A DNA stretch of 64,000 nucleotides from NCBI GenBank assembly GCA_902517615.1, contig CABYCY010000001.1, positions 108,361 to 172,360 on the forward strand. Reading direction: 5' to 3'. Position numbers and translations under genes: made by a program. How positions within the stretch are numbered: position 1 is the stretch's first letter; every line of letters starts with the position of its first letter. Below are positions 5,677 to 12,193 of the stretch, one piece after another. The notes under the pieces were generated by a model. The model had not been told where the DNA came from and did not search any database. It worked only from the letters and a program-made list of their open reading frames with translations. The stretch is from an uncultured Pelagibacteraceae bacterium. GTDB lineage: Bacteria; Pseudomonadota; Alphaproteobacteria; Pelagibacterales; Pelagibacteraceae.

Positions 5677-5684
5677 GATTGTTA

Positions 5685-5712
5685 TTGAATCTGTTATATT
5701 TCCTTTTATATT
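5685..5712 (+). promoter_or_regulatory. Candidate sigma70 promoter for permuted tmRNA
   Basis: TTGAAT (5685-5690), 16 nt spacer, TATATT (5707-5712), just upstream of the GTTGG-TTTT-CCAAC hairpin. AT-rich context makes false positives likely. Confidence 0.35.
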
Positions 5713-5718
5713 AATAAT

Positions 5719-5985
5719 GTTGGTTTTCCAACTACGACGATAAACGAATTTCGTAATAACCATTGCGGACGTGGGGGCAGTACCCACCACCTCCACCATT
5801 GCAACTTATGGGGGTGAACTAGATTCGACGGGTGACTAAAGGCTATTCTTTCGTTCGGGATTGTTCCACCGTAACGGGCTAATTTATAATTGCTAACGAA
5901 AGTTACGCACTTGCTGCATAATTAACTCTGTTAATTAAGCAAACGGGGTCCGGGGCACCTGGCAACAGAACGCCCCTAAAAACAA
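5719..5985 (+). ncRNA. ssrA: Circularly permuted two-piece tmRNA: acceptor piece first (ends CCA at 5798), coding piece second (starts GGGGGTG at 5810), tag ANESYALAA
   Basis: 7-bp acceptor pairing GGGGGTG (5810-5816) with CACCTCC (5788-5794), then A and CCA (5795-5798); T-arm stem GTGGG/CCCAC (5771-5787); conserved GAACTAGATTCGACGGGT; tag reading frame GCT AAC GAA AGT TAC GCA CTT GCT GCA TAA (5892-5921). Outer ends approximate. Confidence 0.93.
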
Positions 5986-6106
5986 TTACACTTTTATTTT
6001 CAATAATAATTTTTTTAAAACTTTAACGAAAAACAAAAAAGTTTAAATCGTAAAATCTCAATATACAGAGTATATATGTGCACAATAATATTCAAAAATA
6101 ACAAAA

Positions 6107-7462
6107 ATGTTTAAAAAAATTGAGATTTGGATAGTTGGTCTTATAGTATTATTCTTTATTTTATTAATATTATTAATATCTGGTATATTAAGAGATGCCT
6201 ACTTAAATAAAAATAAAACTCCTGAGTTTTTGAGAAACAGTTTTGTAACAATAGCAGAAATTCCAAAAAATGTTTATGTTATAATTAGACATATTACAGG
6301 TGATGATATCAATGCAATATCCAAATTACAAAAACACAAAAATAAAAAAAGATTTGAACAGTTTATAGAGAATAAAAGAAATGCTCTTTTAGTATTGCCT
6401 CGATACGAACATAGTTTAAATAGGTCAGTTGTTGATATTGTAGATTTAAATAATTTTGAAGTCATACACACATACTCACATGATATAGATGAAATGAATG
6501 ATCGAGTAACAAATACTGAAGAATTTTCAAGAATTAAAATTGATGATGCTAAAATTAGATTTGAATATCTTCATCCTTTAATATTAAGTGATGGATCATT
6601 AATAAGTGATAGTGGTTACTCTGTAGAGTTTAAAATTGATTTTTGTTCGAATTTAAAATGGATAAATGATGAAGAAATATTTCATCATAGTAAGATGTTA
6701 GATCATGAAGGAAATATTTGGGTAGCAGGACAAATGAACCCTAGATCTAAATATGTTGAAAAATTTGCAATTAAAGGTTTTAAAGATGATTCAATTATTA
6801 AAATAAATACTGAAGGCAAAATACTTTTTAATAAAAGTGTAACTGAAATAATAATTGAAAATGATATTGTGCCTAATAACTTTACATTAAATACATCAAT
6901 GTCAAGTAATTTAGATCCCATACATCTAAATGACATTGAACCTGCTTTAAGTGATACAGAATATTGGAAACAAGGAGATGTGTTTATGTCTATAAGAAAT
7001 CAATCTGCAATTATTCATTATCGACCTAGTACTAATAAAGTAGTCAATTACATAACTGGTCCTTTTGCTCATCAACATGATGTTGATTTCATTTCAGATA
7101 AAGAGATTTCAATTTTTAATAACAACAATTTTTTTGTTAATAATGAATACTCACAAGTTATAATTTATAATTTTGAGACAAAGACATTTAGAAAGTTATT
7201 TAACGATCAATTGCAAAAAGAAAAGTTTAAAACAGAAGATCAAGGTCTTTCTCATATTTTTAAAGATGGATCATTATTGGTTGAAGAACAAAATCATGGA
7301 AGAATAATATTATTTAATAATGAAGGTAAAAAAGAATGGGAGTTTGTAAATAAAGATAAAAATGGAGATATTGCTTATCTTTGGTGGAGTAGAATAATTG
7401 AAGACGAATTATTTATTGAAAAATTTAAATCACTAATTAAAAGTAAAAGATGTTTAAATTAA
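6107..7462 (+). CDS. Arylsulfotransferase (ASST)-like membrane-anchored beta-propeller protein
   Basis: N-terminal TM; HLNDIEPAL, FAHQHDVDFIS, NHGRIILFNNEGKKEWEF propeller-type repeats typical of ASST-family proteins. Confidence 0.72.
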   Translation: MFKKIEIWIVGLIVLFFILLILLISGILRDAYLNKNKTPEFLRNSFVTIAEIPKNVYVIIRHITGDDINAISKLQKHKNKKRFEQFIENKRNALLVLPRYEHSLNRSVVDIVDLNNFEVIHTYSHDIDEMNDRVTNTEEFSRIKIDDAKIRFEYLHPLILSDGSLISDSGYSVEFKIDFCSNLKWINDEEIFHHSKMLDHEGNIWVAGQMNPRSKYVEKFAIKGFKDDSIIKINTEGKILFNKSVTEIIIENDIVPNNFTLNTSMSSNLDPIHLNDIEPALSDTEYWKQGDVFMSIRNQSAIIHYRPSTNKVVNYITGPFAHQHDVDFISDKEISIFNNNNFFVNNEYSQVIIYNFETKTFRKLFNDQLQKEKFKTEDQGLSHIFKDGSLLVEEQNHGRIILFNNEGKKEWEFVNKDKNGDIAYLWWSRIIEDELFIEKFKSLIKSKRCLN

Positions 7463-7668
7463 TTTCTAGTTCAATTATTTTTTGTTTAATTACCACATCC
7501 TCATTTGCTTATTTGGGACCGGGCGTTGGAGGTGGTGTTATTGTAGCAACAATCGGAATAATTGTTGCAATTTTTGCAGCATTTTTTGGTTTGATATGGT
7601 TTCCGATAAAGAGATTGCTTAAAAAAAGAAAAGAAAAAAAAATTCAACAACAAAATAAAGTTGATTAA
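7450..7668 (+). CDS. Small membrane protein with signal peptide and AYLGPGVGGG signature
   Basis: Overlaps preceding ORF by 13 nt; signal peptide, Gly-rich motif, one long TM, basic tail. Confidence 0.7.
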   Translation: MFKLISSSIIFCLITTSSFAYLGPGVGGGVIVATIGIIVAIFAAFFGLIWFPIKRLLKKRKEKKIQQQNKVD

Positions 7669-8026
7669 TCACATATTATTAGTTTGTTCTTCAATACTTA
7701 TCTATGAGTTTATCAGATATATTAGATTTATTGATATTTTAAAATCTAACTTAAAAATTTATCAAAAAATACTAAAGTTATTTAAATATAAAAATATATC
7801 TGATTTTAGAAAAGAAAAATTAATATTTAATTATTCAAAATCATTATTCATAGTTTCAATAAGGATAATTGCTATTCTTATCTCAATTATCATTTTGTTA
7901 TTAATTCTAAATATACTATCTAATTCATATTTAAATTTAATCATATCCATTTTAGGTATTATTGAATTGAGTATAGTCGTTATGATTTATCATTTAATGC
8001 GAAGAAAGTATGATGAAAAACTATAG
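7661..8026 (+). CDS. Hypothetical membrane protein in sulfotransferase operon
   Basis: TTG start overlapping the upstream ORF by 8 nt; hydrophobic segments; ends inside the next ORF. Confidence 0.6.
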   Translation: MINHILLVCSSILIYEFIRYIRFIDILKSNLKIYQKILKLFKYKNISDFRKEKLIFNYSKSLFIVSIRIIAILISIIILLLILNILSNSYLNLIISILGIIELSIVVMIYHLMRRKYDEKL

Positions 8027-8972
8027 CACTATTCAAAAGTTTTTACATGACTTTGTGTTAAATAAAAAGTTTATCAATAAATCTTTGTTTGAACTTGAAA
8101 AAATCATTTATCTAAAAAATAAAGATATAAAAAATCAATCACATATTTTTATCACTGGTCTTCCAAGATCTGGAACAACTAGTATTCTAAATTTTTTATT
8201 TTCGTCAGGTGAATATACTTCTTTGACATATAGAAATATGCCATTTGTGCTCTCACCTAATTTCTCAAAATTATTTAATAAAAAAAACACTCCTCAAAAA
8301 GAAAGGGTACATGGTGATGGTATTACTTATGATATCAATAGTCCAGAGGCATTTGATGAGGTTTTTTTTAATAATGATGAAGAATTTGTAGAAAATGAAT
8401 TATTAAATTATCTTCAATTAATACTACTATCTGAAAGTAAAGTTAAATATTTGAGTAAAAATAATCTAAGTTATAAAAGAATAGATTTAATTCAATCAAT
8501 ACTGCCCAACTCTATATTTCTAATCCCTATTAGAGAACCATTGCAACACGCATATTCACTACTAAGTCAACATATCCATTTTAATCAATTACAAAAGGAA
8601 GATGATTTTATCAGACGATATATGAATTATCTTGGTCACAATGAATTTGGTTTAAATCATAAACCATGGAACAAACCAGTTAATTTTTATGATTTAAATA
8701 AAATAGATTATTGGTTGGAACAATGGTTTTTATTTTATAAGAATATTTATAACAAATATAAATCTTATATAAATTGTTATTTTGTCATATATGAAGAATT
8801 AACGAACCTTAATTATATAAAAACATTATTAGAAAAAATTAATTTTAATGAAGCTGAAAGTATAGATTTAAATTATTTTAAGAACTCTAATAAACAAGAG
8901 ATAAATATTGATTTTTCTAATAACATGTATGAAAACGCAAATAATATTTATAGCAATTTTAAAAATATATAA
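8010..8972 (+). CDS. P-loop sulfotransferase-family protein
   Basis: HIFITGLPRSGTTSILNFLF (5' phosphosulfate-binding loop type) and FLIPIREPLQHAYSLLSQH (3' phosphate-binding type). Confidence 0.82.
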   Translation: MMKNYSTIQKFLHDFVLNKKFINKSLFELEKIIYLKNKDIKNQSHIFITGLPRSGTTSILNFLFSSGEYTSLTYRNMPFVLSPNFSKLFNKKNTPQKERVHGDGITYDINSPEAFDEVFFNNDEEFVENELLNYLQLILLSESKVKYLSKNNLSYKRIDLIQSILPNSIFLIPIREPLQHAYSLLSQHIHFNQLQKEDDFIRRYMNYLGHNEFGLNHKPWNKPVNFYDLNKIDYWLEQWFLFYKNIYNKYKSYINCYFVIYEELTNLNYIKTLLEKINFNEAESIDLNYFKNSNKQEINIDFSNNMYENANNIYSNFKNI

Positions 8973-9024
8973 AAAATATTTAATATACTCGGAAGCTAAA
9001 TTAACAGATGTTGTAGTGTGAGAA

Positions 9025-9486
9025 TTAATCTAACTTTCTCAATAATTTTGCAGGATTACCAGCGTACACACCTTTAATTTTACAGTCGCGCGTAACAACA
9101 CTTCCCGCCCCTATAACACAACCTGATACTATATTTACTGGTAAAATAGTAGAATTACTCCCAATTAAAACATTGTCTCCAATAATGGTTGAAAACCAAT
9201 TCTCTAAACTACCTCCTAATTTTCCATTTTTGAACAAGTCATTCGTAAACATTACCCCATGAGCAATAAAACAATTTTCACCAATAGAAACTAATTCACA
9301 AACAAATGAGTGACTAGATATTCTTGTATTGTTTCCAATAGTTGCACCTTTTGTTATTTCCACAAAAGGACCTACGAACACATTGTTTCCCAAATTGCAT
9401 TCATAAAGATTTACTGGCTCAACTACCTTGCAGTCTTTTCCAAAATTAACATCTTTAATTTGACTTTTTTTAATAATGGGTTTCAT
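9025..9486 (-). CDS. Hexapeptide-repeat (left-handed beta-helix) acyltransferase, WbpD/WlbB-like sugar N-acetyltransferase
   Basis: Hexapeptide repeats, AHGVMFTND, VIGAGSVVTRDCKIKGVYAGNPAKLLRK. Confidence 0.82.
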   Translation of the reverse strand: MKPIIKKSQIKDVNFGKDCKVVEPVNLYECNLGNNVFVGPFVEITKGATIGNNTRISSHSFVCELVSIGENCFIAHGVMFTNDLFKNGKLGGSLENWFSTIIGDNVLIGSNSTILPVNIVSGCVIGAGSVVTRDCKIKGVYAGNPAKLLRKLD

Positions 9487-9532
9487 TCAATAATTATTTA
9501 CAACATAAAAAACAAAAAAAAACAATATTAGT

Positions 9533-12193
9533 TTATTCACCTTTAAGTTCAGCTTGGGCAGCTGCTAATCTTGCAATTGGTACTCTATAAGGTGAACATG
9601 AAACATAATTTAATCCTGCTTTAGCACAAAAAAATATACTGTGTGGGTCGCCACCATGTTCACCACAGATTCCTAATTTTAGATTTTTGTTTTGTTTTTT
9701 TCCTTTTTCCACTGCAAGTTCGACTAAATCTGATACACCTTCGTCTATAGAAATAAAAGGGTCAACTGAAAATATTTTATTTTCCAAATAATCATTTAGA
9801 AACTTGCCACTATCATCTCTGCTAATTCCAAAAGTAGTTTGTGTTAAGTCGTTTGTTCCAAAACTAAAAAATTCTGCATATTTTGCAATTTCTTTAGCTT
9901 TTATTGCTGCTCTAGGCAATTCAATCATTGTACCTACCATAAATTTTATTTTCAGGTTATATTTTTTTTGAACTTCGCTTGCTATTCTAATTACTAATTC
10001 TTTCATTATTTTTATTTCAGCTTCAGTAGATACTAAAGGTATCATTATTTCTGGAAATGCAGATTTTATTTTATTTATTTTAAGCTCTGCCAACGCTTCA
10101 AAGATTGCTCTACATTGCATTTCATAAATTTCAGGAAAAGATATTCCTAACCGACAACCTCTGTGACCTAACATTGGATTTTGTTCATGAAGTTCCTCAA
10201 TTCTTGCCTCGATCTCTTTAAAGGATAAATTAACTATGTTAACCAACTCATTAATCTCTTTACTTGTGCGTGGTAAAAATTCATGTAATGGTGGATCTAG
10301 CAATCTTACTGTGACGGGTAAATCACTCATAATTTTAAATATATCAACGAAATCTTTTTTTTGATGAGGTAAAAGCTTATCAAGCGCTATAGCTCTGTCC
10401 TCTTTTGTTTTTGATAATATCATTTCTCTTACAGATAAAATCCTTTCTTCATCAAAAAACATATGTTCCGTTCTACAAAGTCCAATACCTTCTGCGCCAA
10501 ATTCTTTTGCTGTTTTTGTGTCCTTTGGTGTTTCTGAATTTGTTCTTACTTTTAATTTTCTAAAACTGTCAGCCCAAGACATTAATTTTGAGAAATCACC
10601 AGATATTTCTGGTTTTATAGTTGACACATTCCCTAAAATAATTCTACCAGTTGATCCATCGATAGTAATTATGTCTCCTTCTTTAATCTCCATTAAAGAA
10701 GTTTTAAAAGACTTATTTTCATAGTTTATATCAATTTCACTTGATCCAGAAACACATGGTCTACCCATTCCTCTAGCAACAACTGCAGCATGACTTGTCA
10801 TTCCACCTCTAGCTGTCAAGATTCCTCTAGCAGCATGCATTCCTTGTATATCTTCTGGAGAAGTTTCTACTCTAACTAAAATTGTATCTTGCATCATTGC
10901 AGTTAATCTTTCAGCTTCTTCTGATGTAAATACAACTTTACCACTTGCTGCACCTGGAGACGCGGGTAAGCCATTTGCTATAACATTGATTGAACTTTTT
11001 TCATCTAAAGTAGGGTGCAAAAGTGTGTCTAGTGAATTTGGATCAATTCTTAATACCGCTTCTTTTTTTGAAATTAATTTTTCTTTAACCATATCAACCG
11101 AAATTTTTACTGCTGATTTTGCAGTTCTTTTTCCTGATCTTGTTTGAAGCATCCATAGTTTATTTTTTTCAACTGTGAACTCTACATCTTGCATATCTTT
11201 GTAATGCTTCTCTAACTTTTTCAAAATCTTTTGAAGTTCTTTAAAAACTTTTGGCATAGATTCTTCCATTGATAAATCTTTTACTTTTGCATCTTGCCTA
11301 GCTTTTTTAGTTATATACTGTGGTGTTCTTGTACCTGCTACGACATCTTCACCTTGGGCATTTATTAAATATTCACCATATATTTCGTTTGAACCGTCTG
11401 AGGGATTTCTTGTAAAGACAACTCCTGTCGCACAATCATCTCCCATATTACCAAAAACCATTGATTGAACATTTACTGCAGTTCCCCATTCAGCTGGGAT
11501 TTGATTTAGTTTTCTATAGACTTGTGATCTTTTACTTTCCCATGATAAAAATACAGCACTTATTGCACCTAATAATTGCTCGTAAACATTTTGTGGAAAA
11601 TCTTTTTTTGCTTTTTCTTTTACAGTTCTTTTAAAGTCTTCAATTAATCCATCCCAATCACTTTCATCAAGGTCTGTGTCTAACAAAACACCCTTTGTAA
11701 GTTTGTAATTTTCAATTAATTCTTCAAAATGATAACCTTCAACACCCAGCACTACGTTCCCATACATCTGAATAAATCTTCTATAACTATCTTTAGCAAA
11801 TCTACCATTTGAAGTTTTAATAGCTAAAGCTTTTACTGTTTTATCATTTAAACCTAAATTTAGAATAGTATCCATCATACCTGGCATAGATACTCTTGCA
11901 CCTGATCTTACTGATAATAAAAGTGGATTTTTTAAATCTCCAAATTTTTTATAAACATGCTTTTCTATTATTTTTAATTCTTTTTTAATTTGAGAAATTA
12001 AATTTTTGTTTAATTTTTTTTTATCTTTGTAAAAAATTTCACAAGCTTTAGTAGATATTGTAAAGCCTGGTGGTACTGGAAGGCCCATTCTACCCATTTC
12101 AGAAAGATTAGCTCCTTTACCTCCTAAAAAATTTTTTGGATTTTTAATTTTTTTACTCTCTTTAGAGTTAAAGTTTAAAATGAGCTTTTTCAT
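9533..12193 (-). CDS. ppdK: Pyruvate, phosphate dikinase
   Basis: FLGGKGANLSEM N-terminus, GGMTSHAAVVARGMGRPCVSG phosphohistidine motif, GICGEHGGDP C-terminus. Confidence 0.96.
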   Translation of the reverse strand: MKKLILNFNSKESKKIKNPKNFLGGKGANLSEMGRMGLPVPPGFTISTKACEIFYKDKKKLNKNLISQIKKELKIIEKHVYKKFGDLKNPLLLSVRSGARVSMPGMMDTILNLGLNDKTVKALAIKTSNGRFAKDSYRRFIQMYGNVVLGVEGYHFEELIENYKLTKGVLLDTDLDESDWDGLIEDFKRTVKEKAKKDFPQNVYEQLLGAISAVFLSWESKRSQVYRKLNQIPAEWGTAVNVQSMVFGNMGDDCATGVVFTRNPSDGSNEIYGEYLINAQGEDVVAGTRTPQYITKKARQDAKVKDLSMEESMPKVFKELQKILKKLEKHYKDMQDVEFTVEKNKLWMLQTRSGKRTAKSAVKISVDMVKEKLISKKEAVLRIDPNSLDTLLHPTLDEKSSINVIANGLPASPGAASGKVVFTSEEAERLTAMMQDTILVRVETSPEDIQGMHAARGILTARGGMTSHAAVVARGMGRPCVSGSSEIDINYENKSFKTSLMEIKEGDIITIDGSTGRIILGNVSTIKPEISGDFSKLMSWADSFRKLKVRTNSETPKDTKTAKEFGAEGIGLCRTEHMFFDEERILSVREMILSKTKEDRAIALDKLLPHQKKDFVDIFKIMSDLPVTVRLLDPPLHEFLPRTSKEINELVNIVNLSFKEIEARIEELHEQNPMLGHRGCRLGISFPEIYEMQCRAIFEALAELKINKIKSAFPEIMIPLVSTEAEIKIMKELVIRIASEVQKKYNLKIKFMVGTMIELPRAAIKAKEIAKYAEFFSFGTNDLTQTTFGISRDDSGKFLNDYLENKIFSVDPFISIDEGVSDLVELAVEKGKKQNKNLKLGICGEHGGDPHSIFFCAKAGLNYVSCSPYRVPIARLAAAQAELKGE

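Follow-up and report, generated by a model that had tools for sequence, protein, structure and literature searches.

Bacterial arylsulfotransferases of the ASST type accept many phenols, while their natural acceptors are mostly unknown, as is the natural role of nearly all of these enzymes (PMC13426309). The ASST of E. coli CFT073 (AssT) is a periplasmic beta-propeller of family PF05935, which has the Dsb partners DsbL/DsbI and no sulfotransferase partner. The active site of EcASST consists of His252, His356, Asn358, Arg374 and His436, the last being the residue that is sulfated (PMC13426309). The one characterized pairing of an ASST-type propeller with a PAPS-dependent sulfotransferase that was found is that of caprazamycin in Streptomyces. 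There, Cpz8 sulfates a triketide pyrone using PAPS and Cpz4 moves the sulfate to the sugar of the antibiotic. The two enzymes form a relay, as the product of the PAPS enzyme serves as the donor for the ASST (PMC4257720, PMC6731281). This pair resides in an antibiotic gene cluster, and its carrier is produced by a type III polyketide synthase.

The same two enzyme types are encoded by an operon in a window of 64,000 nucleotides, the whole stretch of DNA analysed, from an uncultured Pelagibacteraceae (SAR11) bacterium (G000; assembly of 1.32 Mb, 91% complete). The operon consists of four consecutive ORFs on the + strand: 6107-7462 (451 aa), 7450-7668 (72 aa), 7661-8026 (121 aa, TTG start) and 8010-8972 (320 aa). 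Neighbouring ORFs overlap by 13, 8 and 17 nt. As homologues of the fourth protein start with MQNY or MNNY, its start is probably the second ATG (8013), which gives a third overlap of 14 nt. The 72-aa protein and the 121-aa membrane protein are referred to here as P2 and P3. The G+C content of the operon is 23%, against 30% in the surrounding DNA. The module is inserted beside an alpha-type tmRNA gene (ssrA; 5681..5980, + strand; Rfam RF01849, 222 bits; also called by ARAGORN), and the operon starts 95 nt downstream of the tmRNA as annotated by ARAGORN.

The first gene (6107..7462, + strand) encodes an ASST-like beta-propeller with one N-terminal TM helix and a catalytic domain predicted to be periplasmic. 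The protein matches Arylsulfotran_2 (PF14269) in Pfam with an E-value of 4.2e-36 and 125 bits, against a cut-off of 27 bits. It thereby differs in family from the CFT073 enzyme, and a Pfam search of the host genome gave no match to a PF05935-type ASST. The AlphaFold model (pLDDT 88) has a beta-propeller fold that Foldseek matches to Cpz4 (9kf4/9kf6) and to E. coli ASST (4p04/4p05), with moderate TM-scores of about 0.5. Of the solved structures, Cpz4 is the nearest to the propeller when judged by sequence profile, and it ranks among the nearest when judged by fold.

Across 22 divergent homologues, down to 14% identity, the residues H193, H194, H273, N275, R297, H324 and N339 are constant. One of the pair H193-H194 (codons 6683..6688, + strand) is proposed to be equivalent to EcASST His252, and H273-x-N275 (6923..6931, +), with the H-x-N spacing described for EcASST (PMC13426309), would correspond to His356/Asn358; the pairings with His252 and His356 were made by pattern and not by superposition. 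R297 (6995..6997, +) and H324 (7076..7078, +) were aligned to Cpz4, to the Arg of “LLLSGRN” and to “QHD”, respectively. They are the proposed counterparts of Arg374 and His436, with H324 as the putative sulfohistidine nucleophile. By profile, the stretch around H324 also aligns weakly to residues 432-481 of 3ELQ. Judged from these conserved positions, the propeller retains the ASST catalytic pattern of H, H-x-N, R and nucleophilic H that is seen in the periplasmic propeller of CFT073.

The fourth gene (8010..8972, + strand, with the probable start at 8013) encodes a P-loop sulfotransferase of the PAPS type, which has neither a TM helix nor a signal peptide and is predicted to be cytoplasmic. 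It matches Sulfotransfer_3 (PF13469) in Pfam above the cut-off (E 1.1e-11). Its AlphaFold model (pLDDT 89) finds human TPST1/2 and mycobacterial STF9 and STF1 as the top Foldseek matches, with moderate TM-scores of 0.4-0.5. These are the best matches in fold and sequence and carry the same PAPS motifs, but identity is only about 15%. The 5′-phosphosulfate-binding loop GLPRSGTT (residues 50-57; 8157..8180, +) has R53, G55, T56 and T57 in 41-43 of 43 aligned homologues. The 3′-phosphate-binding motif R175-x-P177...S183 (8532..8558, +) is present in 42 of the 43, the lone exception being a sequence translated in the wrong frame. Unlike the TPST and STF proteins, the family has the additional invariant residues R99-H101-D103 and H210-E212-F213-G214. 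Taken from alignment and model together, the protein retains the two PAPS motifs as well as the fold of a sulfotransferase.

The two small proteins encoded between the enzymes matched no family in Pfam or NCBIfam. P2 (7450..7668, + strand; 72 aa) has, by hydropathy and homologue alignment, a signal-peptide-like N-terminus with AxA before a tyrosine, a YxGPG motif, one TM helix and a basic tail predicted to be cytoplasmic. Its residues Y21, G23 and P52 are invariant across 24 homologues. P3 (7661..8026, + strand; 121 aa) has three TM helices with a predicted N-out/C-in orientation, based on a TM scan, fusions and alignment. Hydropathy and the positive-inside rule predict an N-in/C-out orientation for the ASST, and the sulfotransferase has no TM helix. 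Four lineages (L007, Paracoccus, Tateyamaria and L127) encode P3 and the sulfotransferase as a single protein, with P3 as the N-terminal part. Position and layout agree in all of them, while the P3 profile matches the Tateyamaria protein weakly (E 0.017) and the L007 protein with a bias in composition, and L127 is assigned by layout alone. These fusions put the sulfotransferase on the cytoplasmic side of the membrane. The layout of P3 had suggested an EMC3/Oxa1-type insertase, an assignment that was dropped as no profile supported it.

P2 resembles a group of small exported proteins of the AYLDPGTG type, which share the signal-like N-terminus, an AYxxPG motif and a single TM helix. They differ from P2 in that D replaces the first G and that no ASST or sulfotransferase gene is adjacent. 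P2-like exported heads are also found fused to type I phosphodiesterase (PF01663) and to CDP-glycerol glycerophosphotransferases (PF04464), at L130:4755-6902, L132:5151-6509 and L137:5133-6431. This suggests that the head serves several envelope-transfer enzymes.

The arrangement of the four genes is not due to chance, since 23 of the 27 ASST-containing contigs that a propeller search recovered from other genomes carry the same four side by side (two entries in the locus list, L002 and L011, are one contig). The carriers are SAR11, Prochlorococcus, SAR86 and other plankton. Three of the four incomplete loci are cut by a contig end (L013, L029 and L032), and the fourth, L012, has lost P3 and the sulfotransferase. 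The order of the genes varies: in L014 the ASST is divergent from the other three, in L004, from the same genus, the order is P2-P3-sulfotransferase-ASST, and L006 and L007 have no separate P3. The pairwise distances of the four proteins are correlated over 26 loci (Spearman 0.48-0.80), a level reached in 0 of 500 permutations.

When the P2 profile alone was searched against 349 Pseudomonadota genomes, 10 distant loci were found, and in all 10 an ASST and a sulfotransferase surround P2. Between P2 and the sulfotransferase is P3 or, in 5 of the 10, a longer membrane protein of the same position and layout; in one locus (L050) the ASST is downstream of the sulfotransferase. Among 385 Alphaproteobacteria, all nine new strong P2 loci adjoin a sulfotransferase, with the ASST adjacent in seven. 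The genomes of the other two (L125 and L126) have ASSTs elsewhere. A tenth match, L130, is of another kind, namely a phosphodiesterase that carries a P2-like head, and the weaker matches belong to a separate AYLDPG-type family with no ASST or sulfotransferase. The module is also carried on plasmids of Novosphingobium, Paracoccus and Tateyamaria. A search of 244 genomes from the cyanobacterial phylum gave a single strong match, the Prochlorococcus genome used as the centre. From these comparisons the four families form a conserved, co-inherited module.

The longer membrane protein that replaces P3 in L053, L054, L056, L051 and L050 has an outer domain between TM helices 2 and 3. A phage origin of the module was rejected, as a profile search of IMG/VR gave no viral relatives and no relative of the sulfotransferase was found among phage records.

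These results bear on the original prediction for this DNA, which was made from the sequence of the window. It had placed four overlapping ORFs exactly where they lie, and its reading of an ASST-like propeller agrees with structure prediction and with the conserved catalytic positions. The two nucleotide-binding motifs it assigned to the sulfotransferase are borne out by the conserved 5′-PSB loop and 3′-PB motif (RxPxxxxxS) and by the fold match, and the co-occurrence it proposed to check is widespread. The prediction withstood the conditions that it had itself named for its refutation. It recognized the operon itself and missed the insertion at the tmRNA gene.

The best-supported reading, to which we assign a probability of about one half, is that the module is a portable relay which carries out sulfation in two steps across the inner membrane. 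The cytoplasmic sulfotransferase would shift sulfate from PAPS onto a carrier that is supplied by the host and can reach the outer face; a phenol or another type of aryl compound is probable. Outside, the ASST would take the sulfate from the carrier onto H324 and hand it on to an acceptor that has been exported and is probably a glycan or glycolipid of the cell surface. According to the predicted topology, the sulfotransferase is held at the cytoplasmic side of the membrane by P3, the propeller lies outside and P2 spans the membrane between them. P2 and P3 would hold both enzymes together and may aid the crossing of the carrier. The predicted location of two sulfate-transfer enzymes on opposite sides of the membrane, one of them an ASST that requires an aryl-sulfate donor, fits such a relay.

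The module shares with the caprazamycin system the combination of a PAPS sulfotransferase and an ASST-type propeller. It differs in having two dedicated membrane proteins and in being a self-standing cassette of Gram-negative and cyanobacterial plankton. A further difference is that no synthase for an aromatic carrier is encoded in the module, nor does one recur in the flanks examined. For this reason, the module is classed as working like Cpz8/Cpz4 and not as a member of that system. Certain loci count against the relay: L012 has neither P3 nor the sulfotransferase, and L125 and L126 have no adjacent ASST. The moderate TM-scores of the fold matches of both enzymes also weigh against it. Homologues of the ASST stand without P2 and the sulfotransferase in about 20 of 30 loci, which indicates that an ASST does not always need a relay. 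The idea that the ASST always needs the module was rejected for this reason.

One alternative, which follows the original prediction of a common acceptor, is that the enzymes sulfate one envelope acceptor independently, one before and the other after its export. Their encoding in one operon and their predicted location on opposite sides of the membrane accord with this, as do the glycosyltransferase and sugar-nucleotide genes beside some copies. We nonetheless consider a shared acceptor unlikely, since it provides no aryl-sulfate donor, which the ASST would still need, and since the known pairing of Cpz8 and Cpz4 is a relay. The sulfation module that had been proposed is supported as regards the ASST pattern, the PAPS motifs and co-occurrence, but not as regards a common acceptor. 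Its assignment to the cell envelope fits the predicted topology, whereas the acceptor is not established by the flanking genes. The flanks are diverse and mostly unrelated, with glycan genes beside only a minority of copies, and neighbouring genes were therefore rejected as a clue to the acceptor.

The flanks also bear on a role in the detoxification or export of phenols, in which the sulfotransferase would sulfate a phenol and the ASST would swap the sulfate among phenols outside, with no envelope product. Such a role is compatible with the range of phenols accepted by ASSTs, whose natural acceptors are mostly obscure (PMC13426309). It appears improbable, as genes of phenol metabolism do not recur beside the module, and coupling at the membrane, an ASST with a TM anchor and a pair of dedicated membrane proteins exceed what it needs.

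P2 itself might be the sulfate carrier, with Tyr21, the predicted first residue after signal cleavage, being sulfated by the TPST-like enzyme and then serving as the ASST donor. The invariance of this tyrosine, the closeness of the sulfotransferase fold to tyrosylprotein sulfotransferases and the finding that no other pair is as tight as that of P2 with the sulfotransferase are all consistent with this. However, the small AYLDPG proteins keep the tyrosine in loci that have neither the sulfotransferase nor the ASST (L131, L133-L140). This indicates that it is conserved for another reason and weakens the idea. The tyrosine is also predicted to lie outside and the sulfotransferase inside, so that P2 is a very improbable carrier.

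The main weakness of the relay model in this host is the gap in the supply of PAPS. Profile searches found no ATP sulfurylase (Sat, CysD) in the 91% complete host assembly, and neither ATP sulfurylase nor CysD in the cassette-bearing SAR11 genomes. The sole match to APS kinase in the host is weak and partial, to a small P-loop kinase. The genomes of two close relatives (L009 and L010) encode a divergent, full-length APS-kinase-like protein, and the distant carriers and Prochlorococcus have a normal APS kinase. AprA is present in all SAR11 tested and could provide APS from sulfite. A reverse flow, in which aryl sulfates outside the cell would be the sulfate source of the ASST and PAP would be recharged to PAPS by the sulfotransferase for a PAPS-deficient host, is suggested by the cassette-bearing SAR11 genomes having no Sat, no CysD and mostly no clear CysC, but it is the least probable of all these explanations given the APS kinase of the distant carriers, the ATP sulfurylase and APS kinase of Prochlorococcus and the ability of AprA in SAR11 to make APS from sulfite.

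In the host genome, the small APS-kinase-like P-loop protein is encoded next to nucleotidyltransferase-like and M24-peptidase-like proteins (L150, G000:C10:20600-21900), the last two being named by eye. The weak APS-kinase match recurs across the genus, and a link to sulfite/APS metabolism is possible.

The original prediction had regarded the system as undescribed, and this holds as far as open papers go: in those on ASST in SAR11, Prochlorococcus or marine operons, or on the P2 motif, the module is not described (subscription literature lies outside this scope). The logic would be Cpz-like and the architecture is new, with two unnamed families and a wide spread. A fuller form of the relay is more doubtful, though conceivable. 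In it, the ASST, the PAPS sulfotransferase and the two unnamed membrane families would make up a self-contained transmembrane sulfuryl-relay machine that sulfates the cell surface and has spread by transfer among the commonest bacteria of the ocean (SAR11, Prochlorococcus and SAR86). Its supply in SAR11 would do without ATP sulfurylase and could, for instance, come from APS made by AprA. The repeated tie of the ASST to a possible donor-making enzyme and two membrane proteins makes the question of its natural role testable. If the relay is correct, the module would be a portable gene set for extracytoplasmic sulfation. Surface sulfation would be predicted in both SAR11 and Prochlorococcus, with possible effects on phage receptors and on the use of sulfur. 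The module also raises the question of the source of PAPS in streamlined SAR11 cells.

The spread of the module is reflected in the ASST tree, where SAR86, another gammaproteobacterium and one alphaproteobacterium are nested in the Prochlorococcus set (96/92 support), which indicates transfer between phyla. Several copies lie within about 320 nt of genes for tRNA-Met, tRNA-Val, tRNA-Ser or tRNA-Asn (L011, L012, L022/L025/L026 and L031). In oceanic plankton, the module would move as cargo inserted next to tRNA and tmRNA genes. The interval between ssrA and ppdK is an insertion hotspot in this SAR11 genus, and it is empty in a relative (G038), in which the end of the tmRNA abuts ppdK. In the window, more cargo of this interval is found outside the module in the form of a hexapeptide acyltransferase gene (9025..9486, - strand; Hexapep PF00132, E 1.5e-17). 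As neither an integrase in the window nor a flanking att repeat around the insert was found, mobility is deduced from position and phylogeny.

The content of the ssrA-ppdK interval varies, with different genes in G033, G022 and G058 (window 5980-9533 compared with L191-L194). Tandem arrays of short cassettes, of 1-4 genes each, are present in L183 (G028:C12:54500-64000, at 1441, 2612, 6061, 7839 and 8450) and in L184-L190. No integrase for these arrays was recognized in the stretches read (L183-L190). The spacers between the cassettes are copies of 28-36 nt of the 3′ end of the tmRNA, so that the arrays resemble those of integrons and are built on ssrA.
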